Source: Amycolatopsis nigrescens CSC17Ta-90 (GTDB lineage: Bacteria > Actinomycetota > Actinomycetes > Mycobacteriales > Pseudonocardiaceae). Taken from it: DNA of 64,000 nt. The position numbers were made by a program, and so were the translations under genes. The DNA is taken from assembly GCF_000384315.1 (NCBI RefSeq), contig NZ_ARVW01000001.1, positions 1,497,746 through 1,561,745 on the forward strand, in the 5' to 3' direction. This document shows, in pieces, positions 3,589 through 53,695 of the stretch. Each line of letters starts with the position of its first letter. Position 1 is the first letter of the stretch. The notes under the pieces are model-generated. The model was not told the origin of the DNA. It worked only from the letters and a program-made list of their open reading frames with translations, and did no database searches.

Positions 3589-5136
3589 TCACACCTGGTC
3601 TCGCATCGCGCGCACCAGTTCGGCCGCGACACGAGACGCCGGCGCGTGCAGGAACCGCTCGACGTCGGCCTGTTCAACACACCGACCGTTTTCCAGCACC
3701 ACCACACGGTCAACCACGGGGAGCAACGCGGCCAGATCGTGGCTGATCATCACCAACGCGCTTCCGGTCTCAACTGCGGCGGCCACCAGGACGGTCAACA
3801 GCGCCGCCTGGTTCACCGTGTCCAGGGCCGAAGTCACCTCGTCACACACAAGCAACCGTGGTCTCGCCATCAACCCGCGCGCAAGCGCACATCGTTGAAG
3901 TTGTCCCCCGGACAACTCACCGGGCTTGCGGGTGACCGTGTCTGCGTCCAGACCGAGCTCGGCCAGAAGGTCCAGTGCCTCAGCCCTCGCCTCGGCTTTC
4001 GGCAGGCCACGCAAACGGCACCCGGTGGCGGCGACCTGACCGAGCACTTCGTGAAACTCGTCAAAGGAAGCCCGACTGTCCTGGTGCACGTATTGCACCG
4101 CCCGCAACTGTTCGCGCGAACGCTTGGCGAGCGCCGCCGGCAAGGGCTGTCCGTCAAGCTCGAGCGTGCCTGCGCCGGCCACGGTAAGCCCCGCCAGCGC
4201 CCGGCCGAACGTGGTCTTGCCGGCACCGGACGCCCCGACCAACGCGGTCCTGCTTCCGCCCGGAAAACGGACGCTGACCTCGTCGATCAACCTGATCCTG
4301 CCCGCACGTACGCTCAGCCCTCTGGTCACCAAAGTGTCGCGATCAGCCGCCACAGCACCCGACGAAGCACCTTCTGGCAACTGGGGCTCGGCCGCCACCA
4401 ACGCCTGCGTACGAACGTGCCGCGGTGCACCAAGGACCTCGGCTACCGGCCCCTGTTCTACCATCCGGCCCTTGTCGAGCACCGCACAATCCGCGGCCAG
4501 CGCTCGGACCAGCGGCAAGTCGTGGGTCAGGAGCAGCAATGCGGTACCACTCGCCACCAGCACCCGAAGCCGATCGATCAGGGCCGCCGAACCGATCGGA
4601 TCCAGCCCTGTCGTCGGCTCGTCGAGCACCAACAGTCGCGGTTGGGTGACCAGCGTGGTTGCCAGAGCCATACGCTGTTGCTGACCGCCGGAAAGCTGGT
4701 GCGGATAGCGCCGCCAGTGCCGCGGGTCGGACAGTCCGGCGGTACGTAACGCGACAGCAGCCGCTTCCGCTCGCCCCGCACGGCCGACATGACGCAGCCC
4801 GGCCAGCTCAGTGAGGACACGCCCGCAACGGCGTACTGGATCGAGCACCGCGGCAGGATGCTGCGGCAGGTGCCCGACGACCCCGGCCCGGATCTCCCGT
4901 CGCCGCGCATCCGTGACCCCGAGCAGGTCGTGCCCGTCGAGCCGTACAGCGCCGGTCAGCCGCACACCGGGCTTGGGCTGGCCGAGCGCGGCCAGCCCGA
5001 GGGTCGTCTTCCCACTGCCGGAACTGCCGACGACCGCGAACACCGATCCTGCCGACAACGCGCAGGAGATGCCGTCAAGCAGCACCTGCTCGCCCACCTT
5101 CGCGGACAGCCCTTCGATCTCCAGCAAGGGCATCAT
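3589..5136 (-). CDS. Fused double ATPase of a peptide/nickel-type ABC importer
   Basis: About 515 residues comprising two complete ABC ATPase halves, equivalent to DppD plus DppF or NikD plus NikE in one chain. Half one has Walker [10 protein letters not shown], signature [12 protein letters not shown] and Walker [13 protein letters not shown]. Half two has [23 protein letters not shown] and [12 protein letters not shown]. It would drive import through the two upstream permeases. ATG at 5136 overlaps the permease stop as ATGA, so translation is coupled. The longer open frame upstream lies inside the permease gene and is not used. It is the last gene of the riboswitch-led operon. Substrate is inferred only from that control: cobalt, nickel or a corrinoid-related compound. 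Confidence 0.92.
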
Positions 5137-5927
5137 CGGCGCTCCCGGGAACGACCGAGCAGCCTGTCTGCGGCAAGGTTCGTGCCCACGCACAGCGCCA
5201 TCAGCAACGCGGCGGGCACGAGCACCACAACAGGTTGGGAGAACAGCACCGAACCGTTGCGTTCGATCACCACCGCCCAGTCCGCCGACGACGACGGCAG
5301 CCCGAGGCCGAGAAAGTTCGCCGATGCGAGCAGGTACAGCACAAGGCCGAGCCTGCTCCCGAAGTCCGTCACCACCGGCCCGAGAACCGAACGCGCCACA
5401 TAACCGACCTGGATCCGCCACCAGGGCTGCCCCTGCATGCGCAACGCTTCGACCGCGATGCGGCAGCCCGGCACAAGTGCGGCCGAGCGCACGATCCTGG
5501 TGATCGCGGGTACTTGGAGCACCGCGGTCGCCACTATCAGCGTGCCGGCACCACGCCAGCCGGTGGCCGCCAGCATCATCAGCACCAACAAGGAAGGAAA
5601 GGCGAGCAGCACGTCCAGCAGGCGCATTACTCCTTCATCCACGATCCGCAGTCGATGGCCCGCCGCCAGCAACCCGAGCGGGACACCGAGCAGGTACGCC
5701 AGGAGGAGCGCAGCGACGGTCATCCCGACGACCGACAATCCACCGCCGAGCACCAAGGCGAGCGCGTCCCTGCCGAGCACATCGGTTCCTAACGGGTACC
5801 GCTCGTCCGGCTGCTGCAACGGCCCGGCCACCGAATCCGTCGTTCTCGCGAAAACGGGACCGAACAAGGCAACCACCAATGGCACGACCAGCAACGCCCA
5901 GCCTGGCAACGCTCGTATCTTCTTCAT
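5133..5927 (-). CDS. ABC importer permease, DppC/NikC type
   Basis: About 264 residues with an N-terminal membrane helix ([17 protein letters not shown]), then the family segment [20 protein letters not shown]. This precedes a BPD_transp_1 domain of five predicted helices, and the EAA-like loop is seen in [24 protein letters not shown]. It forms half of the membrane channel with the upstream DppB-type permease. The start [10 protein letters not shown] at 5927 overlaps the previous stop as ATGA, and the end overlaps the ATPase start as ATGA. The upstream 18 residues of open frame would lie inside the neighbour and are rejected. Confidence 0.9.
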
Positions 5928-6874
5928 CTCGAGACCAGCTGCCCGCGAGGCGTCAGCCGGTACGAGATGAGGTCGGCGCACAAATTCACCGTGACCACCA
6001 CCGCGGCGAACACCAAGGCGTAACCCTGGACTGCCGGAATGTCGCGATTCTGCACCGCTTCCACGAACCCGGTTCCCAGACCACTGATCGCGAACAGTGA
6101 CTCGACGATCACCGCGCCGCCGAGTAGCCCTTCGACGCTGCGCGCCAGCTGCTGAACGATCGGCGCCAGCGCGTTCGGCAACACGTGCCGCAATACCACC
6201 ATGCGCTCCCCCAGCCCGAGTAGCCGCAGGTGGCTGGCCGGCTCACCAACCGTGTGCTCCGCAACCCCGATCCGAATCTGCCTGGCCAGATCGCACAGCT
6301 GCCTGCTGACCAGCACAATGACCGGTAACACCAAGACAGCCGGCCGGCCCAGCAGCGCAAGCCCGGACGCACCGGCAGCGGTGGCCGGAAGCAGTCCGAA
6401 GTAGACGGACAAACCAGCAAGCAGCAGGAGCCCGAGCACGAACTCCGGCATGGAGTGCAGCAGGATCGTGACAACGTTGAGCGCCCGATCCGTACGCGAT
6501 CCTTCACGTAGCCCGCTCGCCAAGCCGAGAGAGAACGCCAGCGGCAGAAGCACAAGCAAGGTGACCCCTGCGAGCAGGGCCGTCGACGCGAACCTGCGTC
6601 CGATCTCATCGGTCACGGGCAGACCGGTCACCAACGAGTTTCCCAGGTCACCCGAGAACAGCTTGCCGGACCAGCCCAGAAACCGATCGACCAGTGGCTG
6701 GTCGAGACCGAGCTGATGCCGGACCACTTCGATCTGCTCGGGTGTCGCCTGCTCACCGAGGACGACCACCGCGGCATCACCGGGAAGCAGTGCGGTAAGC
6801 CCGAACGCGGCCACCAGAACTGCGACGCCCTGTACCGCCGCAACGGCAGCTCGGATCAGTACGAAACGCAACAC
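5924..6874 (-). CDS. ABC importer permease, DppB/NikB type
   Basis: About 316 residues. It opens with a membrane helix (FVLIRAAVAAVQGVAVLVAAFGLTALLPGD), continues with the typical DppB region (EVVRHQLGLDQPLVDRFLGW, then GDLGNSLV), and has the permease domain with an EAA loop (LGLGERMVVLRHVLPNALAPIVQQ). GTG at 6874 is chosen because it follows the binding-protein stop by one base and starts at the first helix. The 45 extra residues upstream overlap the binding-protein gene and look non-native. Second gene of the riboswitch-led importer operon. Confidence 0.9.
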   Translation of the reverse strand: MLRFVLIRAAVAAVQGVAVLVAAFGLTALLPGDAAVVVLGEQATPEQIEVVRHQLGLDQPLVDRFLGWSGKLFSGDLGNSLVTGLPVTDEIGRRFASTALLAGVTLLVLLPLAFSLGLASGLREGSRTDRALNVVTILLHSMPEFVLGLLLLAGLSVYFGLLPATAAGASGLALLGRPAVLVLPVIVLVSRQLCDLARQIRIGVAEHTVGEPASHLRLLGLGERMVVLRHVLPNALAPIVQQLARSVEGLLGGAVIVESLFAISGLGTGFVEAVQNRDIPAVQGYALVFAAVVVTVNLCADLISYRLTPRGQLVSR

Positions 6875-6875
6875 T

Positions 6876-8399
6876 TCAGCGGAGCCGCGTCCGGTCGAAA
6901 CGAGCCCAGTCGAAGGAGTTCGGTGGTGCCGCTCGCAACCCTTCCACTCTGCCCGAAATTGCGACATTCCAGTTGCTGAAACCCCACACGAGCATGCCGC
7001 CGGTGTCATGCACGATCCGCTGCGCCTGCCCGAGCAACTGCAACCGTTGCTGCTCGTCGCGAGTGGCCGCGACCTGATCCATCAACCCATCGAACTCCGC
7101 CGAAGCGAAACCGTTGATGTTGGTGGACACGCCGCTGCGGAAGCGCTGGTTGAGAAAAGTGGGCAGTGGCAGGGTCGCGGTGCGGGTGTGCGCGGCGACG
7201 CCCTTTGTCGTGATCTCGTTGAAGTACGTACTGGCCGCACGCGTGTTCGGAGTGACCGTGAAACCGATTTCCTTGAGCTGCTGAGCGATCAGTGTCGCCG
7301 CCGACTCGAAGGCGGGATCAAGCCCACTGGTCTCCAGCGCGAAGGTGACCCCTTCCGCACCAGCGTCTCTGACCAGCGCGCGAGCACGGTCGACATCCCT
7401 CGGCCGTTGGGCGATGTCCGCCGGGTAACCATGCAGGCCAAGGCCGAACAAGTCGTTGCCGACCTCTCCCCGCCCTGACAATGCGACCCCGACCAACGCT
7501 TCCCGGTCCACGCCGGACAGGAAGGCCTGCACCAGTCTCGGGTCGGCGAACGGCGGTTGACTCAGCCTCAACACTACCGCCTGCATGGTGGTCCGTTCAG
7601 CGGACAGCACTGACACCCGGCTGTCCGTGGACAACCTGGCCGCCGAGTTGGCCGCGACGTCGTGTGCGTAGTCGACCTGCCCGGAGAGGAGGGCATTGAC
7701 CCGTGCCGGCTCCTCGTTGATCGGCACGAACTCCAGCTCGCTCAAGCTCGGCGCACCGGCCCAGTGGCCGTCGAAGCGCCGGAAGACGGCCGGCCCTCCC
7801 GGATTGAAGGAGACGAACTGGAATGGGCCGGACCCCACGGGATTACTGAAATCCGTGGTCCCGGCCGGCACGATCTCGGTCATCGGAGCACCCCACCCAC
7901 TGGGAAACTCGAAATCCGGCGCGGTCAGGACCAGCTCCAGCTCGGTCGGGGAAACCGACCTGCTGGCCGCGAAGTCCACCTTCACAAAGTATTGACGTGA
8001 AGGCGACGCCGTCGCCGGGTCGGCGACGCGGCGCAAGCTGTACAGCACGTCCTCGGCAGTCACCGGTCGACCATCGTGAAAGGTCGCTTGCCGTAATCGA
8101 ATCCGCCACCGAAGTCCCGCCACGTCGCTCTCCCACGACTCCGCCAACCGCGGACTGACCGACATGTCGTCCTGGTAGGCCACGAGCGTGTCGAACAGCG
8201 CTTTGGCTCTTGCCTGGTTCACGAACAGCGAACCGGTATGCGGGTCCAAGGTCTCCTTCGACCCGCCCGCTCCGAACGCCACTCGCAGCCGTCCTCCAGT
8301 ACCTGACTGCCCGCTGGCCCCGCACGCGGCCAGCGGCGCCAGAACAGCGAGACCGGCCGCACCGGCCAGCAGCCGACGTCTGGTCATCTCGGTGGTCAT
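6876..8399 (-). CDS. Extracellular solute-binding lipoprotein, family 5 (peptide/nickel type)
   Basis: About 507 residues. The N-terminus MTTEMTRRRLLAGAAG carries a twin-arginine-like signal and a lipobox LAAC, so it should be a lipid-anchored receptor outside the membrane. The SBP_bac_5 body is clear: KETLDPHTG, LAESWESD, RLRQATFHDGRPVTAEDVLYSLRR and VGSGPFQF. ATG at 8399 is used because the signal begins there; the longer frame runs into the leader hairpin. A weak AGG site lies 9-11 nt upstream. First gene of the importer operon, 100 nt downstream of a cobalamin riboswitch. This points to cobalt, nickel, a metal chelate or a corrinoid precursor rather than ordinary peptides; that substrate is inference. 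Confidence 0.92.
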   Translation of the reverse strand: MTTEMTRRRLLAGAAGLAVLAPLAACGASGQSGTGGRLRVAFGAGGSKETLDPHTGSLFVNQARAKALFDTLVAYQDDMSVSPRLAESWESDVAGLRWRIRLRQATFHDGRPVTAEDVLYSLRRVADPATASPSRQYFVKVDFAASRSVSPTELELVLTAPDFEFPSGWGAPMTEIVPAGTTDFSNPVGSGPFQFVSFNPGGPAVFRRFDGHWAGAPSLSELEFVPINEEPARVNALLSGQVDYAHDVAANSAARLSTDSRVSVLSAERTTMQAVVLRLSQPPFADPRLVQAFLSGVDREALVGVALSGRGEVGNDLFGLGLHGYPADIAQRPRDVDRARALVRDAGAEGVTFALETSGLDPAFESAATLIAQQLKEIGFTVTPNTRAASTYFNEITTKGVAAHTRTATLPLPTFLNQRFRSGVSTNINGFASAEFDGLMDQVAATRDEQQRLQLLGQAQRIVHDTGGMLVWGFSNWNVAISGRVEGLRAAPPNSFDWARFDRTRLR

Positions 8400-8410
8400 T
8401 GATCGAGCCT

Positions 8411-8438
8411 TCCCGGGACATCGGGCGATGTCCCGGGA
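8411..8438 (-). promoter_or_regulatory. Perfect 13-bp hairpin, probable riboswitch expression platform
   Basis: TCCCGGGACATCG (8411-8423) and its exact complement CGATGTCCCGGGA (8426-8438) are separated by two bases, giving a very stable stem. It lies between the cobalamin aptamer and the importer start codon, with 11 nt left to the ATG on the minus strand. It has no U-tract, as is common for actinobacterial terminators. It could stop transcription or occlude the ribosome site. Confidence 0.7.
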
Positions 8439-8498
8439 CGTCCGCAGGCGCACACCGGGACCCCGCCCTGTGAACCACGACAGTGAGGGGTGATGCTC

Positions 8499-8665
8499 GT
8501 TCCGAAGCAGGCATTCCGGCTCACGGCGTCAGAACGCCGTCCACGGTTGCGGGTCAGCGCCGGGATTCGACCGGCTTCCCCTGCCAAGGAGCGTATGAAG
8601 TTGTCCGCACCCGGGAGACGATCTCGGGTGTGCCGACACTAACCCACGACGGTCGCTCCTGGAAC
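8499..8665 (-). promoter_or_regulatory. Cobalamin (B12) riboswitch aptamer
   Basis: Read on the minus strand, the element has a closing P1 stem GTTCC (8661-8665) with GGAAC (8499-8503). An early hairpin follows, with arms ACCCGAGA and TCTCCCGGGT. The conserved core contains GGGGAAGCCGGTCGAATCC, then CGCTGACCCGCAACCGT. A short stem-loop GGCGTTCTGACGCC comes next, and the B12-box-like segment GAGCCGGAATGCCTGC closes the element. These match the order and key bases of the AdoCbl/cobalamin riboswitch consensus. Bound cobalamin normally shuts off expression, so the downstream importer should be induced when B12 is scarce. Confidence 0.88.
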
Positions 8666-8759
8666 CTGGCTGCTCGATCCCAGCGTTGCACCCGGTCCGC
8701 CTGCGATCACGCAAGGTGGTGGCCGTCCGACCTGCAACCGGACACTCACGAGATCTAGG

Positions 8760-8787
8760 AATCTAGCCACCCCGACCACGAGTTCAA
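8760..8787 (-). promoter_or_regulatory. Sigma-70-type promoter of the riboswitch-led importer operon
   Basis: On the minus strand TTGAAC (8782-8787) and TAGATT (8760-8765) are separated by 16 bp. Transcription would start near 8753, giving a leader of about 350 nt that contains the whole cobalamin aptamer and the hairpin before the binding-protein gene. Confidence 0.55.
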
Positions 8788-8917
8788 CACCTCAATCACC
8801 CTTTCAGGGCATCGCTATTCCGAAGCAATGGGCATTTTTCTACAGAAATCGCTAGTAACGGTACATCTCGTACGGCGAATTTTCAGAAGCACTCAATCTC
8901 CGCAGTAAATTGAACTC

Positions 8918-10165
8918 ATGGAAATGATCGACTACCTCAGAAGGAACCCGTGGCCGGCAACCGAGTTCTTCGCGGTTTCAGGCCCTGAGATCGAGACGCT
9001 GCCCGACAACAGCACCGTGGAGGTGATCGCTACAGCCCAGAAGTTCACCTGTCAGGCTCAAGCGATCCTGCTTCGCGGAGTGGCGCATCTGCACGACCTT
9101 CGCCCCGGCGATCGATCGGTCGCCGACGAACTCGCGCCGGAGCTCGGTGTCTCACGTCAGACCGCACAGACGCTCATCGCACTTTCGGTCGCTCTGCGAG
9201 ACCGGCTGCCAAACGTGTTGCAGGAGATGGAAAAGGGCACCGTGGACCTGCTGAAGGCCAGAAAGGTCTTCGAGGTGACAGCACCCTTGACCGATACCCA
9301 AGCTCGTGCTGTGGACTTGAAACTAGCCGGGCGCCTGGCCGGCAAGGACCCGGCAACGATCCGCCGGCTAGCTCGCATCGCTGTTCAGCACATCGACCCG
9401 GACGGCTACGCGAAGCGCGCCCAGATGCGACGGAAGGAGCGCAAGGTCGAACTCACCCACGGAGACGGCGCCATGGCCACCCTCTCCGGCTACCTGGGCG
9501 TCGACAGGGCCGGCGCCGCGTACCAACGCATAGACACCCTCGCCCGTGCTCTACGCGTGAAAGGCGAAACTCGCACTCTCGAACAACTTCGGGCCGACGT
9601 GTACGGCGACCTGCTGCTCGGCACGTCCACCGGCGGCGGACTGGCCGCACAGATCTTCGTCCATGTTCCCCTGGACACCGCGCTCGAGATCCGGGACGGA
9701 GTCTGCGAACTCGTCGGTCATGGTCCCATCCCTGCTCGCATTGCAAGAGAGATTATGCGCAACCCCAAGAGCGTATGGCACAAGGTAATAACCGACCCCG
9801 TGACAGGTACCGTCCGCAACATCGGCGGCGCCGAGTACCGAACATCCGATACTCCTGATGGTCTGATGTGGATGCGAGACAACGAATGCCGCATGCACGG
9901 CTGCCATCGGCCCGTCAAGAAGGACAAGAACGATCACGATACCCCGCGAGCCACCGACGGCAGAGCCGCAGCCTCAATCATGGACTGCTTCTGCGAGCAT
10001 CACCGCTACCTCCGCGACCAGCCTGGCTGGAGCTTCACGCTCAACCCCGACACGGGGGAGTTCACCATCACCACACCCGCTGGGCGAACGTATACCTCAT
10101 ACCCGGAACCTACTATCGCCCCGCCCAAAGACGATATGGATGGCACCACACCGGAGGAGTCCTGA
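8918..10165 (+). CDS. DUF222 / HNH endonuclease signature protein (13E12-repeat-like)
   Basis: 415 residues. An N-terminal DUF222 region (RDRLPNVLQEMEKGTVDLLKARKVFE, TIRRLARIAVQHIDPDGYAKRA) is followed by the C-terminal zinc/HNH-like segment. There CRMHGCHRPVKK, then NDHDTPRATDG, then CEHHRYLRDQPGW lie near residues 327-370. The histidine and cysteine pattern fits an HNH nuclease fold, but the usual DHV...GG...NL order is altered. This family is multi-copy in actinobacteria, and its function is not established. A TAAATT box (8906-8911) ends 6 nt before the ATG, so a leaderless transcript is likely. Codon use is less GC-biased than its neighbours, compatible with mobility. Confidence 0.85.
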   Translation: MEMIDYLRRNPWPATEFFAVSGPEIETLPDNSTVEVIATAQKFTCQAQAILLRGVAHLHDLRPGDRSVADELAPELGVSRQTAQTLIALSVALRDRLPNVLQEMEKGTVDLLKARKVFEVTAPLTDTQARAVDLKLAGRLAGKDPATIRRLARIAVQHIDPDGYAKRAQMRRKERKVELTHGDGAMATLSGYLGVDRAGAAYQRIDTLARALRVKGETRTLEQLRADVYGDLLLGTSTGGGLAAQIFVHVPLDTALEIRDGVCELVGHGPIPARIAREIMRNPKSVWHKVITDPVTGTVRNIGGAEYRTSDTPDGLMWMRDNECRMHGCHRPVKKDKNDHDTPRATDGRAAASIMDCFCEHHRYLRDQPGWSFTLNPDTGEFTITTPAGRTYTSYPEPTIAPPKDDMDGTTPEES

Positions 10166-12878: not shown

Positions 12879-15059
12879 GTGACGACGGAGAACGGCCTTC
12901 CAGGGCAGACAACGACGGAACGGGCTTTCGACCCACCAGCGGGGTTCGCGGACGAGATCGTGAGCACCGTGGTCAGGGCGATGCCGTTGATCATGGCCGC
13001 GGTGCCGGCCACACCGGCTGCCGAACTGGGCCGGTCCGGAGCGAACCTGCGCGACCGGCCATGGGGCCAGGACTCCGGTTCACTGGTGTTCAACGGGCTG
13101 CAGGAGCTCCGGCCGGTACTCACGGAACGTTTACTCGGGGCTCTCGAACTGACCGTGGACAATCTGTCCCCAACGTCGACGGCAGGCTTCGCGGAGCAAC
13201 TCGCCGCCCCAGGATCGTCCCTTGTGACGACGATCGGCATGGACTCCGAAGGCGACACCACACGCGCAGTGAAGCTGCTGGACGCGCTGCGCCCCGGCGT
13301 CACCGGCATGATCTACGCACTCACCGCTGAACTGGCCGGATACGAAAAGGTCGCCGGGCTGCTGACTGTGACGGACTCGGCCGACGAGGCGGGGGTCGCC
13401 GCCCGGCATGGCACGGCGCATCTCGCGCTTGCGGTGGCTACTGCCGCCATCGTGCTGCGCACCCTGGACATGCCCGTGATCGGCACGGCTGACACGGTGG
13501 TCGGCGTGGCGCTTGGGGTCACCGCGCTACGACTGCGCGAAACGGCCATGCCCACCGCATATGCGGGCGCACTGCTGGAGAAGCGCCGTGTGGAGTATCT
13601 GCTTCCGCGGGCCGCGAGCGGCTCGGTGCTGGTGCACGATCACCGGTTCGCGCTGGCCGAAGGCGCCGCCTTTCCCGAGGACCCGGACTTCAGCCGGAAC
13701 GGGCTGGTCGATGTGACCGGCGGCGGACTGGTGATCCGGACCGGCATCGAGGAGGGCTGGGTATCGGTGACCCTGCGTGTGCTCGAGGAACCGCCCGCGG
13801 AAGTCGACGCGGAATGGTGGGACGAGGTGGTCGAGGCCAGCTGGACGGCACTCACCGGGTCCGCATCGGTATTCGGTCCCCGGCAGCCGGCACAGCGGAA
13901 CCTGCGGGACGAAACACCACCGTGGCCTGGCGACTACCGGGTACGTGTGCACGCCAATGGCCGCGACACCGACGACGAGCGAGAGAGCTACGAATTGGTG
14001 CTCTGGAGTGCGCCTCGGTCAGCAGAACTCGTGTATGAGACCACCGACCGACTTGGTCACCGGCTTCGCGGGGAACCCGAACCGCCGGTCATCAGCAGTC
14101 CCGAGGACGGGTATCGGTGGGTGAACGACAGCGCGCTGCAGGTCGCCGCCACGGTCACCGTCGCCACCGGCATCACGTCGGAGGAGGTCCTGCACGCGTT
14201 CGGAGCCGATCCCGCCGAACCGGCAGCACTGACCGAGCTGCGCGAGGCCATGGGCATCGACCCGTGGGTTGCCGTGCTGGAGGTCGACGGCGCGGTCGTG
14301 GCCATCGAGGAGAACGGTTATCAGGGTTCGTACGGACCGGTCCTGCGACCGTTGTCGCAAGCAGGGCGGGCGGCCAGCATGTACTGGAACGTCAACGCGG
14401 TGACCCGGCTGTCCATGGCCAGGAACGGCGAAGTTCTGATGTCCTGCGAACCCGGCACCCAGGATCCACCGGACGATCCCGAGGTCACCGCGGCGCTCGA
14501 AGGGCTGGACCTGGACGACTTCCACAACCGCATAGGCAAGGGGCTGGTCGCGGTGGAGCGGTTCACCGGTCATGAGCTTCGCCCCGGGGATCTCGACCGG
14601 ATCAAAGCTGCCTGCCTGGCATACCGGATCCTTCCGCGGTTGTCCGAGCTGTACCGGGAGGAGCGGCTTCCGGACGGTTCCCGGCGCTCGCCCGGCAGCG
14701 GGCCGCTTGGCGCGGACACCGACGAGCTGGCGTTCCTGCCGGACGAGAGCCTGCGGGATCTGGCGTGGTGGGCCGCCAACGAGGCGGTGGTCCATGCCGG
14801 GCTCAACGAGGACTCCGACGTACGGGTCAGTCTGTCGAACCGCGAGCTGAGCGCGAACGCCGAGATCCGTGCCAGGACCACAGGGCTGGAAGGCCGCGGT
14901 GCGCACCATTGGATGTGGGAAGCTGTGCACCGGGCGACCAATCCCGATCCGCTCGGGGCGGCGATCGGCGCGCTGGATGCAGCCAGGTACGCCGCCGCGG
15001 GTGCCGCCGCCGAACTGCTCGACCGCGCCCATCGGCGCATCGCGGAAGCAAGTAGCTGA
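12879..15059 (+). CDS. 726-residue multidomain protein with a DUF6461-like segment, function unknown
   Basis: Not recognised as a whole. About 1-245 is mostly helical and includes hydrophobic runs (LALAVATAAIVLRTLDMPVIG, then VVGVALGVTALRL, about 186-222). About 250-405 resembles an actinobacterial beta-rich domain: LVHDHRFALAE, then WVSVTLRV, then DYRVRVHANGRDTDDE. About 411-525 resembles DUF6461: GYRWVNDSALQVAATVTVATG, then AVVAIEENGYQG and RAASMYWNVNAVTRLS. The C-terminal 200 residues are alpha-helical with no visible motif. There is no signal peptide. The start is GTG at 12879 with AGGATGG upstream. It follows the export permease by 31 bp. The composite make-up suggests a scaffold or effector-type protein; no function is claimed. 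Confidence 0.75.
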   Translation: MTTENGLPGQTTTERAFDPPAGFADEIVSTVVRAMPLIMAAVPATPAAELGRSGANLRDRPWGQDSGSLVFNGLQELRPVLTERLLGALELTVDNLSPTSTAGFAEQLAAPGSSLVTTIGMDSEGDTTRAVKLLDALRPGVTGMIYALTAELAGYEKVAGLLTVTDSADEAGVAARHGTAHLALAVATAAIVLRTLDMPVIGTADTVVGVALGVTALRLRETAMPTAYAGALLEKRRVEYLLPRAASGSVLVHDHRFALAEGAAFPEDPDFSRNGLVDVTGGGLVIRTGIEEGWVSVTLRVLEEPPAEVDAEWWDEVVEASWTALTGSASVFGPRQPAQRNLRDETPPWPGDYRVRVHANGRDTDDERESYELVLWSAPRSAELVYETTDRLGHRLRGEPEPPVISSPEDGYRWVNDSALQVAATVTVATGITSEEVLHAFGADPAEPAALTELREAMGIDPWVAVLEVDGAVVAIEENGYQGSYGPVLRPLSQAGRAASMYWNVNAVTRLSMARNGEVLMSCEPGTQDPPDDPEVTAALEGLDLDDFHNRIGKGLVAVERFTGHELRPGDLDRIKAACLAYRILPRLSELYREERLPDGSRRSPGSGPLGADTDELAFLPDESLRDLAWWAANEAVVHAGLNEDSDVRVSLSNRELSANAEIRARTTGLEGRGAHHWMWEAVHRATNPDPLGAAIGALDAARYAAAGAAAELLDRAHRRIAEASS

Positions 15060-24383: not shown

Positions 24384-25877
24384 TCACCGGGGTCGCCGGA
24401 ACTCGGCGCGCCACCGGTGCGGGTCGGCGATCTCCTCCACGCGCACCGGAGTGAGACCGCCGGTGGCGAAGGACTCGATCTCGCGGCGGGTAAGGGGCCA
24501 CGGCGGGCCCTGCACAGCGGGGTCTTCGCGGACGGCTTCGATGGCCAGCAGGGTGCCGCCGGGACCGACCAGGTTCGCCACGGCGGCGGTGGCCTTGTCC
24601 CGGACCGAGTCCGGTAGCGCCTGCACGGTGAAAATCTCGACCACCAGGTCGAAGGCGGCCTGCCAGCCGGCGGGCGGCTCGAACAGATCCGCCCGCAGAT
24701 ACTCCACCGGGGATTCGGGAAAGCGTGCACGGACGAGCCGGACGGCGGTGTCGGAAATATCGAACGCCACGGTTTCGAACCCGAGCCCGGCCACGAACTC
24801 GGCGTCGGCGCCGAAACCGCAGCCGACGACCAGCGCGGAACGGCCTTCGCCACGCAGGCCGTGGGCCCATTCGGTGAGCAGCGGGTGGGGAGCCCGTCGA
24901 TCCCATGGCATCGTCGTCTCGCCGGCGACCCCCGCCTGGTAGAGCCGTTCGAACCAGCCGGTCGGGCTGCCGGTGGCCAGCGACTGGGCGGCAAGGCGAT
25001 CCGCCTGCCGCTCCCAGCCGCCGGACGTGTGCCGCAGGATGGCCGGGACGACCACGTCCCATACCTGCCGTGGTGGCATCTGGTGCCCGACGCCGGCCAG
25101 CGCGACCAGGTCACTGCCGGGGATTTCACGGGCCAGTGCTTCGGCGTGGCCGAAGGGGAACAGCGGGTCTTCGGTGCCGTGCAAGACCAGCGTCGGCGCG
25201 GTCACGTCGCCGAGCCGGTGCCGGATCGGGTCGCCGCCTTCGATGATCCAGTGGTTGGTCATGCTGGCCGCGATGTCCGTGGTCCGGTCGAAAATCCGGC
25301 CGGCCAGCTCGCGCTCCCGCTCCTGGTCCACTGGGCACGAGCCGGCGAACGGGCGGTATCCGGCCACCATGTGGTCGGTCATCGCGGCCCGGTCGGACCA
25401 GTCCGGGTCCGGCGCGGGTTCGGCGAACAACGCCTGGATCCGCTCGCTCATCGGCGGTAGATCCGGGTTGGCGGGGCCGCCGGGACCACCGGGGCTGGTG
25501 GAGATCAGCGTCAGCGAAGAGACCCTGTCGGGAAATTCGACACCGAGCCGCTGACCGATGCCACCGCCCATCGAGATGCCGACGACATGCGCCTCGGCCA
25601 GCCCGAAAGCGTCGAGCAGCCCGACCGCGTCCGCGGTCAGGTCGAGCTGGCTGTACGGCGGCGCCCCGGCGGGATAGGAGGTGGACCGTCCGGTGTCGCG
25701 GCTGTCGTACCGGAGGACGAACCGCAGTCCTGCCGCGAGCCGCTCGCAGAACTCGTCCTCCCACCAGTCCATCGAACTGGTCGCGCCACCGATCAGCAGG
25801 ATCGCGGGCTCGGCCGGGTCACCGAAGGTCTCAACGCAGAGATCCACGCCGTTGACGTGGACGAGTTTTTCGACCAT
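24384..25877 (-). CDS. Alpha/beta hydrolase fused to a SAM-dependent methyltransferase
   Basis: About 497 residues in two domains. Residues 1-285 are an alpha/beta hydrolase: VNGVDLCVETFGDP, nucleophile GISMGG (Ser102), LVLHGTEDPLFP with the acid, and VGHQMP with the histidine. After a helical link (ADRLAAQSLATGSPTGW), residues 300-497 form a class I methyltransferase of the TPMT/tellurite-resistance type. It has MPWDRRAPHPLLTEW, the SAM motif LVVGCGFGAD (349-358), VAFDIS and RADLFEP. Either domain alone is common, while the fusion is unusual. It could release and then methylate the same small molecule. ATG at 25877 has GGGAGG upstream; the 16 residues before it lack a site. Confidence 0.9.
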   Translation of the reverse strand: MVEKLVHVNGVDLCVETFGDPAEPAILLIGGATSSMDWWEDEFCERLAAGLRFVLRYDSRDTGRSTSYPAGAPPYSQLDLTADAVGLLDAFGLAEAHVVGISMGGGIGQRLGVEFPDRVSSLTLISTSPGGPGGPANPDLPPMSERIQALFAEPAPDPDWSDRAAMTDHMVAGYRPFAGSCPVDQERERELAGRIFDRTTDIAASMTNHWIIEGGDPIRHRLGDVTAPTLVLHGTEDPLFPFGHAEALAREIPGSDLVALAGVGHQMPPRQVWDVVVPAILRHTSGGWERQADRLAAQSLATGSPTGWFERLYQAGVAGETTMPWDRRAPHPLLTEWAHGLRGEGRSALVVGCGFGADAEFVAGLGFETVAFDISDTAVRLVRARFPESPVEYLRADLFEPPAGWQAAFDLVVEIFTVQALPDSVRDKATAAVANLVGPGGTLLAIEAVREDPAVQGPPWPLTRREIESFATGGLTPVRVEEIADPHRWRAEFRRPR

Positions 25878-26039
25878 GGGGGCCTCCCGCTCGTGAACTG
25901 ACTTCGAGAACCGTAGCCGGTGCACGCCGTTGGGCCGACCCGCTGGAGTCCCTCATATCCGATCGAGTCGTTCACACATGGCGGACACGGTTATGGCGTA
26001 CCTACCGTCTTCGCATGCGGCGTCTGCTGGTGGTTCTGA

Positions 26040-38042: not shown

Positions 38043-38177
38043 GCCCCGCGTACCGGCAGTCCGGCCACCGAGCTGCCTCCGTTCAGGTTCCCCGGACCGG
38101 GTGAGCCGGTGCGCCGAATGCAGTACGGTTTACTCTCCCTGGTCGCCTCCGATTCCGGCTGTGGTGAGGAGAAAGTC

Positions 38178-39992
38178 GTGCGGGCTGGTCAGCTGATCGC
38201 GGACCGCTACCGCCTGCGGGAGCCGGTGGGCTCGGGCGGTATGGGCGAGGTCTGGCGGGCCTACGACGAGGAGCTTCACCGGGTGGTCGCGGTGAAGTAC
38301 GCCCGTGGCGATGCTCCGGAGCCGGAGGACCGCGGCATGCGGCGCGAAGCCAGGATCGCCGCCGGCCTGCAGCATCCGCATGTGATCACCGTGCACGACG
38401 TGGTGGTCGAGGCGGGCGCCCGCTGGCTGGTGATGGAGTACCTCCCCTCGCGGAGCCTGGCCGAGACCCTCGACGAGCGCGGCCACCTACCCGTGCCCGA
38501 AGCGGCCGGTATCGGCGTGCAGATCGCCGACGCGCTGGAGGCCGTGCACGCGCGCGGGGTGGTGCACCGCGACGTCAAACCGGGCAACATCCTGGTCACC
38601 GAGGACGGCCTGGCCAAACTGGCCGACTTCGGCATCTCGCGGGCGGTGTGGGGCGAGCTCACGCTGACCGAAGGCGGGGCTGCCGCCGGCACCCCGGCCT
38701 ACCTGTCGCCGGAGGTAGCCGACGGCGGTGAGCCGCATCCGGCTTCGGACATGTTCTCGCTCGGCGCCAGCCTGTATGCGGCGGTGGAAGGCGGCTCCCC
38801 GTTCGGGGACTCCGAGAACCCGCTGGCGATCCTGCGCAAGGCGGCCGCCGGCGAAATCGCGCCGATGCGCCGGTCCGGCGCGCTGACCCCGGTGCTCACC
38901 GCACTGCTCAGACGCGACCCGGCGAAGCGGCCGGACGCCGCCGAGACCCGCCGTCTGCTGGAACAGATCGTGCGCGACGGCGGCACCGGGCCGATTCCCG
39001 GTCCGGTCGGAAAACCCGACAGGCGTGCACGCGGCCGATGTCGCGCCGTCTTCGCCGCGGCCGGGCTCGTTGCGACGGCGCTCGCGCTGCTGTGGGTCGT
39101 GCTGCCAACGGACTCGCCGACCGACCAGCCGGGGCCGTCCGCCTCTGCCGATCTGCCGAAACCGGTCGCCGCGGTCGGCGACACGCACACCGCCGACCCC
39201 TGCGCGCTGCTCGACCAGGCCGCGCTGGCGCCGTTCGGCGAGCTCGAGCTGGAGACCGACTACGGCAACTTCGACCGCTGCGACCTGGTGGTGACGTCCG
39301 GCGAGAAGTCCGAGGTCGACGTAGAGATGCAGTTCGAGCCGGTCACCGCACCGATCCCGGGCGAGTCCCGGCCGCTGGAGGTCCGGCGGGAGGCGGAAAG
39401 CGACGGCGAATGCGAGCGGACCGTGCTGCTCGGCGACCAGAACAGGGTGGTGGTGACCGCCCAGCAGAACAAGGACGGCCCGGCCGACCTCTGCAGAATG
39501 GCCGACGCCGCCACCGATGGCGCGCTCGCCGTGCTCGGCCGGGGCACCGTCCCGCGCCGGACCGTGCCGATCGACCCTCGTTCGCTGGCCAACGCGAACG
39601 CGTGCGGATTACTCGACAACACCGCGCTGGCGAAGATCCCCGGGGTCGACGCCAACCATCCGGACATCGGGTTCGGCGGCTGGGACTGCGGCTGGAGCAG
39701 CACCACCAGCGACGTCTCGGTCAAGCTGCGGTTCGACCGGCATCAGCCGCTGACCGCATCGGACGGCCGTCCGATGCGGCTCGCCGGGCGGGACGCGTTC
39801 ATCGAGCCGGAGGGCGACGGCGACGACACCTGTGTCGCCAGGATCGTCCACCGGCCCTACACCGACGACGACGGCAAACGTGCGGTCGAGCTGGCGTTCC
39901 TGGTGGTCAGCGGTCCGCAGCCGAGCGAATGGCGGTGCACGCTGGCCACCGACCTGGCCAAGGCCGCGGCGGGCGCGCTTCCGCCCCTCTGA
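38178..39992 (+). CDS. Transmembrane Ser/Thr protein kinase with duplicated Cys-rich ectodomain
   Basis: 604 residues. The kinase (about 10-275) has GSGGMGEVW (18-26), catalytic Lys40, HRDVKPGN (130-137), DFG (150-152) and GTPAYLSPE, so it is complete and PknB-like. A single helix follows at about 289-310 (AVFAAAGLVATALALLWVVLP). The outside part (about 345-604) is two repeats of a DUF3558-like module, each with four cysteines: DPCALLD/DRCDLV/GECER/DLCRM and NACGLLD/WDCGW/DTCVA/WRCTL. It should sense an extracellular signal and phosphorylate cytoplasmic targets. GTG 38178 has GAGGAGA 5 nt upstream. An FHA protein follows. Confidence 0.93.
   Translation: MRAGQLIADRYRLREPVGSGGMGEVWRAYDEELHRVVAVKYARGDAPEPEDRGMRREARIAAGLQHPHVITVHDVVVEAGARWLVMEYLPSRSLAETLDERGHLPVPEAAGIGVQIADALEAVHARGVVHRDVKPGNILVTEDGLAKLADFGISRAVWGELTLTEGGAAAGTPAYLSPEVADGGEPHPASDMFSLGASLYAAVEGGSPFGDSENPLAILRKAAAGEIAPMRRSGALTPVLTALLRRDPAKRPDAAETRRLLEQIVRDGGTGPIPGPVGKPDRRARGRCRAVFAAAGLVATALALLWVVLPTDSPTDQPGPSASADLPKPVAAVGDTHTADPCALLDQAALAPFGELELETDYGNFDRCDLVVTSGEKSEVDVEMQFEPVTAPIPGESRPLEVRREAESDGECERTVLLGDQNRVVVTAQQNKDGPADLCRMADAATDGALAVLGRGTVPRRTVPIDPRSLANANACGLLDNTALAKIPGVDANHPDIGFGGWDCGWSSTTSDVSVKLRFDRHQPLTASDGRPMRLAGRDAFIEPEGDGDDTCVARIVHRPYTDDDGKRAVELAFLVVSGPQPSEWRCTLATDLAKAAAGALPPL

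Positions 39993-49353: not shown

Positions 49354-49357
<4 letters not shown>
48893..49357 (+). CDS. Cupin domain protein
   Basis: 154 residues, single double-stranded beta-helix domain: RFSLLEVTLAREIPRHVHHRADEAIYVLDGELGIEFAG carries the metal-type HxH...E motif, then FTLLPRGVPHALRPLS carries the second histidine. Many such proteins are small quercetinase-like or epimerase-type dioxygenases. ATG 48893 has AAGGAG 7-8 nt upstream. It is likely the main target of the divergent TetR regulator. Convergent overlap of 4 bp with the UvrA-like gene. Confidence 0.92.
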
Positions 49358-51660
<2,303 letters not shown>

Positions 51661-51671
51661 ACCTGATATCC

Positions 51672-51716
51672 TTACATTGTAAAGTGATGACTCGGTGAGA
51701 TTACTGTACACCGTAA
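51672..51716. promoter_or_regulatory. TetR operators between uvrA-like and tetR
   Basis: TTACATTGTAA (51672-51682) is a perfect dyad, and TTACTGTACACCGTAA (51701-51716) has matching ends. The flanks GATATCCTTAC and GTAAGGAGTATC mirror each other. They fill the 66-bp gap between the divergent starts and overlap both ribosome sites. Confidence 0.6.
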
Positions 51717-51726
51717 GGAGTATCAA

Positions 51727-52521
51727 GTGGTGGTCTTTGCCGGACAAGGCGACGCCCGCCGCTCGATGGCCCTGTTGTGGCGCGGCGAGGGAACTGAGGA
51801 AGTCTCGCGGCCCGGTCCCGGCCCCAAGCCGGGGCTGAGCGTGGACCAGATCGTGGACGCCGGGATCGCGGTGGCGGACGCGGACGGCATGGCCGGGCTG
51901 TCCATGCGCGCGGTCGGCGAACGGCTCGGGCGCACCGCGATGGCGCTCTACACCTACGTGCCGAACAAGAGCGAGCTGGTCGACCTGATGTACGACCGGG
52001 CGCTGGCCGAGCTGCCCACCGGCTATCGGCAGCGGGCAGACTGGCGGCCCACCCTCGCCGCCTGGGCCGAGGACACCCTGGAGTTCTACCTCCGGCACCC
52101 GTGGGTGCTGCAACTCTCGCAGGCGCGGCCGGTGCTGGGGCCGAACGAGTTCGTCGTGCTGGACACGGTGCTGCGCATCCTGTTCCGCACCGGCCTGCCG
52201 TCTCCGGTGGTGCGCGGCATGGTCGGCACGCTGTTCCACTTCGTGCGCGGGGCCGCCCAGTCGATCGCGGAAGCGCGGCAGGCCGCGGCGGAGACCGGGC
52301 TCTCCGACGAAGAGTGGTGGTTCACCCGGTCCCCGCTGCTGGAAGAGGTCGCCCCCGACTTCACCGAGCGGTACCCCATGGTGGCCCGCCTCAACGACAC
52401 TCCCCCGCCCCCGCCGGACGACAAGGACACGCCCTACCTGGAGAACGCGGCCCGGTCGACCTTCCAGATCGGGCTCACCACGCTGCTGGACGGCATCGAG
52501 GCCGCCAGGGCCAGGAGCTGA
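51727..52521 (+). CDS. TetR family regulator, TetR_C_1 type (tetracycline-repressor-like)
   Basis: 264 residues. An unusual N-terminal tail of about 35 residues (ALLWRGEGTEEVSRPGPGPKPGLSVDQ) precedes the HTH (VDAGIAVADADGMAGLSMRAVGERLGRTAMALYTYVPNKSELVDLMYD). A drug-binding C-terminal domain of the TetR_C_1 type is shown by RPTLAAWAEDTLEFYLRHPWVLQL. It likely represses the UvrA-like gene until a DNA-damaging or intercalating compound binds. GTG 51727 has AAGGAG 7 nt upstream. A poly-proline run (PPPPPDDKD) sits near 228. Confidence 0.92.
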   Translation: MVVFAGQGDARRSMALLWRGEGTEEVSRPGPGPKPGLSVDQIVDAGIAVADADGMAGLSMRAVGERLGRTAMALYTYVPNKSELVDLMYDRALAELPTGYRQRADWRPTLAAWAEDTLEFYLRHPWVLQLSQARPVLGPNEFVVLDTVLRILFRTGLPSPVVRGMVGTLFHFVRGAAQSIAEARQAAAETGLSDEEWWFTRSPLLEEVAPDFTERYPMVARLNDTPPPPPDDKDTPYLENAARSTFQIGLTTLLDGIEAARARS

Positions 52522-52525
52522 GGTC

Positions 52526-53695
52526 TCAGGTCGAGCACATCGCGGCCAGCCCCAGCCTGGTGCCCGCTTCGCCGAGCCGGTCCGCCATCGCGGTGTCCAA
52601 AGTGGAGTCGAGCGTGTAGGTGAAGGCGACCTGGCGGCTGCCGTCCGCGGAACTGAACGCGTAGGTGGTGTACCCGAGCCCGCCACCGGTATGCCCGTAG
52701 GCCACGCCGCCGGGCACCGAAGTGCAGCTGGACGGAGTGGGCATGCCGAGCAGCCCGAGCCCGTACATCCCCGCCCAGTTCGTGCTGAACTTCTTGGCTT
52801 CGGCCAGCAACGGGGGCGGCAGCAGGGTGCCGTCGAGCATCGCCCGGTAGAACTTGTTGACGTCGCCAGGAGTGGAGATCACCGCGGCGGCCGACCAGAA
52901 CTGGGTCGGTGACAGGTCGCTGGTGTCCAGCAGGGGTTCGGCCGGGTCGCCGGTGGCGTAGTTGCCCCTGGGGTGGGCGCCGCGGATGTGCGGGCTCCAG
53001 CGGGGCAGGTACGAGGCCCGCATGCCCACCGGCCGGAAGATCCGGTGCTCCAGCTCGCTCTCCACGGAGTGCCCGGTCAGCTTTTCGATCAGCATGCCGA
53101 TCAGCACGTAGTTCGCGTTGGAGTAGCTGAATCCCTTGCCCGGCTTGAACAGCAGCGGCCGGGCGGCGACCATGCCGACGATCTGTTCCGGGGTGAACTC
53201 GCGGTACCGGTTGTTCCGGACGTCCTCGGCCGAGCCCTTGTCGATCGACGGGTAGATGTCCTCCCGGATGTAGTCGGTGAGGCCGCTGGTGTGACCGAGC
53301 AGCTGGCGGATGGTGATGGTCTCTTCGTAGGGCAGCAGGCCGGGCAGGTAGCGCTCGATCGGGTCGTCCAGGCCCAGCCTGCCCTCCCCGGTCAGCTGGA
53401 GGGTCACGGTGGACACCATGCTCTTGGTGAGGCTGGCGATCCGGACGCGGTCGGTCGGCCTCGCCGGGTCGGCCCGTCCCGGCTCGCGGTTTCCCCGCGC
53501 GGCCGACCAGACCTCCTTGCCCGCCCTGGCTTCGGCGAGTACCGCCGGGGCGCCGGCCGCCTTCAGCTCGTCCAGCATGCGGTTCAGCAGGGCGGGGTCG
53601 AGTGCGGACGGCGACGGCGCCGCGACGGCAGCGGGAGCGGTCAGGGACAGCAGGCCGGCGACGACCGCGACCGGAAGCAACTTCGTTCTGTGCAT
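52526..53695 (-). CDS. Secreted serine hydrolase, class C beta-lactamase/DD-peptidase fold
   Basis: About 389 residues. A Sec signal (LLPVAVVAGLLSLTAPAAVAA) precedes a complete penicillin-recognising domain: SxxK in RIASLTKSMVSTV, YxN in YSNANYVLIGMLIEKLTG and HTG in GHTGGGLGYTTYAFS. The family includes D-Ala-D-Ala carboxypeptidases and esterases, so resistance cannot be inferred. ATG 53695 starts at the signal; a start 10 residues earlier with GGAGG is too close to its site. Convergent with TetR (4-bp gap) and 68 bp after an exported amidohydrolase on this strand. Confidence 0.9.
   Translation of the reverse strand: MHRTKLLPVAVVAGLLSLTAPAAVAAPSPSALDPALLNRMLDELKAAGAPAVLAEARAGKEVWSAARGNREPGRADPARPTDRVRIASLTKSMVSTVTLQLTGEGRLGLDDPIERYLPGLLPYEETITIRQLLGHTSGLTDYIREDIYPSIDKGSAEDVRNNRYREFTPEQIVGMVAARPLLFKPGKGFSYSNANYVLIGMLIEKLTGHSVESELEHRIFRPVGMRASYLPRWSPHIRGAHPRGNYATGDPAEPLLDTSDLSPTQFWSAAAVISTPGDVNKFYRAMLDGTLLPPPLLAEAKKFSTNWAGMYGLGLLGMPTPSSCTSVPGGVAYGHTGGGLGYTTYAFSSADGSRQVAFTYTLDSTLDTAMADRLGEAGTRLGLAAMCST

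Follow-up and report, generated by a model that had tools for sequence, protein, structure and literature searches.

The window, as we call the whole 64-kb stretch of DNA analysed, carries on its minus strand a cobalamin riboswitch followed by an operon for an ABC importer, with these features:

8490..8629, minus strand: cobalamin riboswitch aptamer RF00174, a short form lacking the long insert seen in Streptomyces copies (covariance match and alignment)
8455..8464, minus strand: putative anti-sequestor strand GGGGUCCCGG, which can pair with the 5' arm (8430-8436) of the ribosome-binding-site hairpin
8411..8438, minus strand: putative sequestor hairpin made of a 13-base inverted repeat (2-base spacer), the 3' arm of which runs into the ribosome-binding site
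8408..8414, minus strand: Shine-Dalgarno-like motif GGGAAGG, at 8 nt from the ATG (the similarly placed motif of the relatives is GGAGG)
6876..8399, minus strand: family-5 solute-binding lipoprotein SBP_bac_5, 507 aa, with its ATG at 8399 (domain search)
5924..6871, minus strand: permease 1, NikB/Opp2B-like (domain search; the open frame extends to 7009)
5133..5981, minus strand: permease 2, NikC/Opp2C-like (domain search)
3589..5136, minus strand: fused double ATP-binding protein, NikD+NikE-like, 515 aa, with two ABC_tran stretches

The operon spans 8399-3589 and reads leftward through the binding protein, the two permeases and the fused ATPase; the start of permease 1 was set near 6871 because the family matches begin at residue 47 or later. 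With SBP_bac_5, two BPD_transp_1 permeases and one protein bearing two ABC_tran domains, it has the complete set of a family-5 (peptide/nickel/opine-type, Opp/Nik) ABC importer, as the original prediction had proposed. Elsewhere in the window we observed a 726-residue open frame whose sole Pfam match is DUF6461 (12879-15059), an open frame that combines an alpha/beta hydrolase with a methyltransferase domain (24384-25925), an open frame in which a DUF3558 match comes after a serine/threonine kinase domain (38109-39992), and a 1110-residue open frame of apparently UvrA-like outline, in which ABC_tran is accompanied by a DnaJ-type zinc motif below threshold (49354-52686).

The riboswitch is the sole Rfam match at the gathering score within the 64 kb. 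RF00174 matches 8629..8490 on the minus strand over model positions 1-189 with 32.6 bits, barely above the gathering score of 31.5 (E 1.6e-4), so that the covariance-model search suggested earlier as a check was passed narrowly. The element had been placed at 8499-8665 with no strand given; the site was right and its borders were off by about 10-35 bases. Like other RF00174 members, it reaches the gathering score across the full model and precedes a transport operon. A leader covariance model, built from 20 leaders of the window and the fetched loci, scored the site (8639-8464) at 86.0 bits (E 4e-23), the window being one of the training leaders. Because scores of this model on its training loci are not independent, we checked eight related loci with Rfam, and all eight gave RF00174 above gathering at the orthologous place: 39.5, 39.2 and 47.9 bits for the short forms in L044, L047 and L051, and 85-101 bits for the long forms in L064, L130, L132, L145 and L146, which in L132, L145 and L146 stand before a DUF364-like gene. 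The short form is shared by the window, Amycolatopsis, Actinokineospora and Sciscionella, whereas most of the aligned Streptomyces and Saccharopolyspora copies have the long insert. These independent matches confirm the riboswitch, and we consider both its presence and its linkage to the importer near certain.

Between the aptamer and the start codon, two alternative helices could compete for the same bases. In 10 short-form leaders (the window and nine relatives) the 7 pairs counted in the sequestor hairpin are kept in 70 of 70 cells, and in the same leaders the 6 pairs of the anti-sequestor helix are kept in 60 of 60, versus 19-63% paired in slid versions of the two helices. Two Sciscionella rows have a C to U change in the 5' arm of the hairpin and G to A changes in both alternative partners; this single event in two rows is the pattern to be expected of competing helices. 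One pair is doubly changed, a count not above chance, since 199 and 177 of 500 shuffles for the two helices reach it. The folding energy of the full leader is unremarkable against shuffles (z -0.05), and the last 105 bases fold slightly better than shuffles (z -1.0). A simple scan found nothing terminator-like in the leader region, and the promoter predicted upstream was not recovered by a sigma-70 scan of 8380-8930. Mutually exclusive helices around the ribosome-binding site would fit translational OFF switching, in which an AdoCbl-type riboswitch represses the importer at the level of translation. When B12 is plentiful the aptamer would be folded, the hairpin would form and the importer would not be made; when B12 is low the anti-sequestor would pair with the 5' arm of the hairpin and free the ribosome-binding site. 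Here the helix of the B12-bound state is assigned by analogy with the usual OFF logic of this riboswitch class.

What the importer carries cannot be read from model names, because each of the four proteins falls short of the NCBIfam cut-offs for the named importers listed. The permeases and the ATPase are nearest to Nik/Opp models. The binding protein scores 128 and 74 bits with two NikA models whose cut-offs are 600 and 393, and the residues taken to form the nickel pocket of NikA are not kept in the 16 sequences compared, the alignment being uncertain at that place; on both counts the system departs from the NikABCDE nickel importers. It also departs from BtuFCD, since the window importer lacks the pair of a Peripla_BP_2 binding protein and a FecCD permease. 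By sequence, the closest PDB match of the binding protein is the opine-binding AgaA, and the nearest solved folds to its AF2 model (pLDDT 86) are YliB and then AgaA with agropinic acid. This predicted kinship would fit an amino-acid-like chelate as cargo.

To follow the riboswitch-importer pair across relatives, a binding-protein alignment scan of the GTDB species genomes was used, which gave 239 relatives; the best 80 of 239, corresponding to 77 named loci, were analysed, and gene content was assigned by tblastn with seven reference proteins, of which the one for permease B was out of frame and contained stop codons, so that no weight attaches to whether this permease was matched. Some fetched loci are shortened by contig ends (L063, L070, L074, L081, L088, L096, L099 and others). 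The window clade was defined as a branch of 47 rows in a quick, midpoint-rooted tree (SH-aLRT 94) containing the window, L121, L128, L130 and 43 named loci; a 44th clade locus, L098, had a match in two pieces and was therefore not placed on the tree. With the leader model, a riboswitch stands before the importer operon on the same strand in 43 of the 44 clade loci, versus 0 of 33 outside the clade, among these best 80 of 239 relatives. The clade locus for which the leader model found no riboswitch is L072 (Streptomyces oceani), and outside the clade L087 and L093 each contain a match at another position of the locus, with no binding-protein gene behind it. The link between riboswitch and importer, as predicted, is therefore real and conserved across the clade loci. 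As separate observations, in genome G074 (L135:2871-7853) one riboswitch match (48.6 bits) precedes ribonucleotide reductase genes and a second (46.5 bits) precedes a family-5 binding protein that the tree places outside the riboswitch clade. Pseudonocardia-type loci (L086, L087, L093, L094, L096 and L136) carry two or three binding-protein genes per 12-19 kb, with no riboswitch match directly before these copies.

Within the clade, one branch (Saccharopolyspora, Actinopolyspora, Prauserella and Saccharomonospora) has more than an importer under the riboswitch. In nine of the 43 loci (L053, L056-L059, L061, L069, L084 and L107, with L129 as a tenth) the order is riboswitch, DUF364-like gene, SbnA-like PLP enzyme (PALP), MFS exporter and importer, and in the nine the riboswitch lies about 3.5-4 kb upstream of the binding-protein gene, the gap being filled by three same-strand genes. 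Pfam searches of L132-L134 gave PALP in all three and MFS in the one tested; DUF364 (PF04016) was matched marginally in L132 and L134 (23.6 and 23.0 bits against a cut-off of 23), with no Pfam match to it in L133. The DUF364-like protein is well conserved among 30 sequences, and the AlphaFold model of the L132 protein (pLDDT 90) has as its nearest solved structures the DUF364 proteins 3l5o and 3npg, of unknown function, followed by weaker enolase-type and PLP-enzyme matches. Gathering score and predicted fold together place it in DUF364, the score by a narrow margin. The best NCBIfam model for the PALP protein is SbnA, at 268.4 bits, which misses the 349.95 cut-off of the SbnA equivalog TIGR03945; models of cysteine synthase and cystathionine beta-synthase match it as well, and its first PDB match is a cysteine synthase (3.8e-46), ahead of SbnA (3.8e-42). 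In L132 the stretch from riboswitch to importer holds three genes, none of them a nicotianamine-synthase-like gene or an opine dehydrogenase.

Six further rows of this branch, L052, L054, L055 (genome G046), L060, L128 (G079) and L130 (G101), have the importer directly behind the riboswitch and no DUF364 gene beside it. In these six genomes DUF364, PALP and MFS lie together at a separate site (L145-L147 and L151-L153), with a riboswitch directly before the DUF364 gene, whose product is 64-68% identical to that of L132. Five of the split genomes are Saccharopolyspora, and G101 shares its genus code with G046 and G079, the last two being near-identical here. The fused ATPase was not found near the permeases, in about 6-8 kb downstream, in the Saccharopolyspora-type loci L055, L060, L127, L128 and L130. 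Counting nine contiguous and six split cases, all 15 rows of the branch have riboswitch-controlled DUF364, PALP and MFS genes. The strongest indication of a common function of these genes and the importer is that one genome can have two unlinked units, each under a B12 riboswitch. The Saccharopolyspora/Actinopolyspora branch would have a metallophore gene set in the wide sense under one regulon if, as presumed, the first two genes make a chelator; in the genome of the window such a set is not under the importer's riboswitch.

The window belongs to an importer-only branch of 32 rows, together with Amycolatopsis, Actinokineospora, Sciscionella, Streptomyces and Actinomadura. Whole-genome searches for the DUF364-like protein (E 1e-15), which also took in three genomes of the full-unit branch, found it in 14 of 31 importer-only genomes, at 41-57% identity, and not in the other 17. 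For the nine of these 14 matches that were fetched (L154-L162), no riboswitch was found within about 1.5 kb of flank. The host has a single match (43%), at C1:3.87 Mb. This lies in a second metallophore-like cluster (L141:9215-17869) composed of a family-5 importer, a methyltransferase, an SbnA-like PALP, DUF364 and MFS; no riboswitch match was found there, and a Zur-like palindrome stands about 50 bases before the open frame of its binding protein (chance expectation 0.01).

Clusters of the same kind form a paralogous set of 21 named loci among the best 80 of 239 relatives, with binding proteins 44-48% identical and on a separate tree branch. In 19 of the 21 the importer is preceded by DUF364, PALP and MFS; in L099, which is shortened by a contig end, and in L111 only MFS was found. 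L100 also has ATP-grasp, enolase-superfamily and methyltransferase genes. The leader model matched no riboswitch in any of the 21. A 15-base Fur/Zur-like palindrome, searched with a pattern that we presume to be that of Zur, precedes the cluster with at most 3 mismatches in 10 of the 21 loci (chance expectation 0.00 in L108; in L111 the box stands before the MFS gene) and with 4 mismatches in L100, L105 and L118. It was not found in the remaining eight; the L103 locus may end before the cluster start. At up to 3 mismatches the box occurs elsewhere among the named loci in L058 and L114, away from cluster starts, and none was found upstream of the riboswitch operons. The host genome has two Zur-like sites within 2 mismatches, against 0 for the control, and one of them is that before the paralogous importer. 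The other (L148:5635, C1:6355634) precedes a 279-residue open frame that has no Pfam match and neighbours PNPOx-like and indigoidine-synthase-A-like genes, with no known zinc gene beside it. We use the label Zur tentatively, because the pattern is a presumed one and the second host site has no known zinc gene nearby. In the paralogous set these genes accompany the importer, which makes it probable that the full unit is ancestral and the importer-only state derived.

In the 9.11-Mb genome of the host (one contig) RF00174 occurs at six sites, five of them above gathering, before metE, cobN, a FecCD-ABC-Peripla_BP_2 importer, a Peripla_BP_2-FecCD importer, the window importer and, at the sub-threshold site (28.3 bits), a stretch containing ChlI/ChlD-like, CobO and CobB genes. 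The host encodes CobN and the predicted cobalt transporter CbtA, with no match to CbiM or NicO in its genome; because CbtA and two riboswitch-controlled Btu-type importers are present, the window importer is not its only route. The riboswitch importer is present in 16 of 120 genomes of the family, and CobN in all 16 carriers. Nine CobN-positive genomes are without CbtA, CbiM and NicO (NicO being counted only at E below 1e-20), and five of these nine carry the riboswitch importer. All three transporters are lacking in 5/16 carriers versus 4/93 CobN-positive non-carriers (Fisher p 0.003), a profile that is supportive only, because three of the five transporter-less carriers are of one genus. Taken singly, the transporters have no clear relation to the importer (CbtA p 0.14, CbiM p 0.06, NicO p 0.79).

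The original prediction had listed cobalt, nickel, a metallophore complex and a corrinoid fragment as candidate substrates. The metallophore complex is now favoured, because in relatives the riboswitch controls the SbnA-like, DUF364-like and MFS genes, whether joined to the importer or unlinked from it. A first rival reading is unlikely in our view: that the importer takes free cobalt or nickel, or cobalt complexed with a common amino acid, as NikABCDE takes Ni-histidine, while DUF364, PALP and MFS serve something else under the same riboswitch. The relevant passage of PMC2667541 describes NikABCDE members behind B12 riboswitches in two Firmicutes, C. tetani and D. hafniense, and these resemble the window system in being family-5 importers so controlled, set apart there from nickel-specific NikA proteins. 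The Nik/Opp-like permeases and ATPase and the transporter profile of the family genomes agree with such a cargo. The window system differs from the importers described in PMC2667541 in that it scores far below the NikA cut-offs, lacks the NikA pocket residues in an uncertainly aligned region, has a fused ATPase and, in one branch of relatives, is joined to presumed chelator genes. A free-metal cargo would also not explain why PALP, DUF364 and MFS are under the riboswitch both where they are joined to the importer and where they are split from it.

Quite unlikely, as we see it, is a metallophore for zinc, nickel or iron, which the B12 riboswitch would tie to a state in which B12-independent enzymes need that metal. 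MetE, whose gene is in the host riboswitch regulon, is a zinc enzyme, and the paralogous clusters carry the Fur/Zur-like box. The chelator [S,S]-EDDS of Amycolatopsis japonicum is under Zur (PMC9252823 and PMC6103462); it is alike in being an actinomycete chelator under a metal regulator, and differs in being controlled by Zur and not by B12. Against another metal, no Zur-like box within 3 mismatches was found upstream of the riboswitch operons, the riboswitches of the host other than that of the importer act on metE, on B12 synthesis and on uptake of the Btu type, and it is a lack of cobalt that brings B12 down.

It is also quite unlikely, we think, that B12 or a corrinoid fragment is imported, even with the same riboswitch class before two Btu-type importers in the host: the host already possesses those two systems, the window binding protein is SBP_bac_5 and not Peripla_BP_2, and corrinoid uptake would not require its unit to include an SbnA-like enzyme and an exporter. 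CobN in all 16 carriers points to cobalt demand, with which salvage would still be compatible. Least probable of all is peptide or amino-acid salvage under B12 shortage with the SbnA/cystathionine-synthase-like enzyme feeding sulfur amino-acid supply, because, much as SBP_bac_5 importers often import peptides and the PALP protein matches cysteine synthase (its best PDB match) and cystathionine beta-synthase, SbnA ranks first among its NCBIfam models, neither an MFS exporter nor a DUF364-like protein would be in place, and the same gene set recurs behind a metal-regulator-like box.

The preferred reading, a metallophore complex as cargo, has parallels in known systems. In the staphylopine and pseudopaline (cnt) systems, biosynthesis genes, an MFS exporter and a family-5 importer form one unit. 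The contiguous loci share with cnt the joining of synthesis, MFS export and family-5 import genes, and differ in that the genes are DUF364-like, SbnA-like and MFS, with no nicotianamine-synthase-like gene or opine dehydrogenase among them, and in their control by a B12 riboswitch. SbnA itself acts in siderophore biosynthesis; here the PALP protein stays below the SbnA cut-off, and its neighbour is DUF364-like instead of SbnB. CbiMNQO, CbtAB, NiCoT and CbtJKL resemble the window importer in supplying cobalt for B12, partly under B12 riboswitches, and belong to other protein families. Metallophores are known for several metals other than cobalt. A lanthanide metallophore is one such case (PMC11317620). 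In Streptomyces coelicolor, the regulon passage of PMC4991794 lists B12 synthesis, a cobalt-type ATPase, a FecCD-type importer and nrdABS behind B12 riboswitches. The main text of the cobalt-supply review PMC7689651 does not contain the terms chelator, opine or nicotianamine, nor does that of the B12 regulon survey PMC3766115 contain oligopeptide, dipeptide or nickel. The open-licence literature searched holds no description of a cobalt metallophore or cobaltophore, which is not proof of novelty, and among the matches listed there none mentions DUF364. A B12-switched, cobalt-scavenging system of making, export and import, as proposed for the relatives, is new to us as far as the searched literature goes.

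Taken together, these results suggest, somewhat more strongly than an even chance, that an AdoCbl-switched importer takes up the cobalt chelate of a metallophore whose synthesis and export are co-controlled in relatives. The cargo would be the metal-chelate of a small amino-acid-derived metallophore, most likely with cobalt (a 'cobaltophore'), and in one branch of relatives the same riboswitch would govern the presumed synthesis genes, for the SbnA-like PLP enzyme and the DUF364-like protein, and the MFS exporter. That the riboswitch and importer form the import arm of a B12-switched actinobacterial metallophore system is likely; the metal is probably cobalt, since the make, export and re-import anatomy of a metallophore is tied here to B12 shortage. 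With only the importer half under its riboswitch, the host would take chelates from neighbours or from its own riboswitch-free paralogous cluster, and piracy of this kind is a reasonable guess for the window's host. The riboswitch, the operon, their conserved linkage, the common riboswitch control of the synthesis and export genes in relatives and the conserved alternative pairing are observed, whereas the chelator, the metal, the ligand and direction of switching and the scavenging role are inferred. A wider history, which we hold to be about as probable as its opposite, is that an actinobacterial cobaltophore, with SbnA-like and DUF364-like synthesis, MFS export and family-5 re-import, arose beside a Fur/Zur-type paralogue and gained a B12 riboswitch, and that some lineages, the window's included, became importer-only pirates.

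If true, this would be a small-molecule system switched by B12 and the cobalt counterpart of other metallophores, in organisms for which, as B12 makers, cobalt is a necessity. It would also give a testable role to DUF364-like proteins and to a large group of unnamed 'peptide/nickel' importers, and the importer-only genomes would add cobalt piracy to the interactions of soil microbes.
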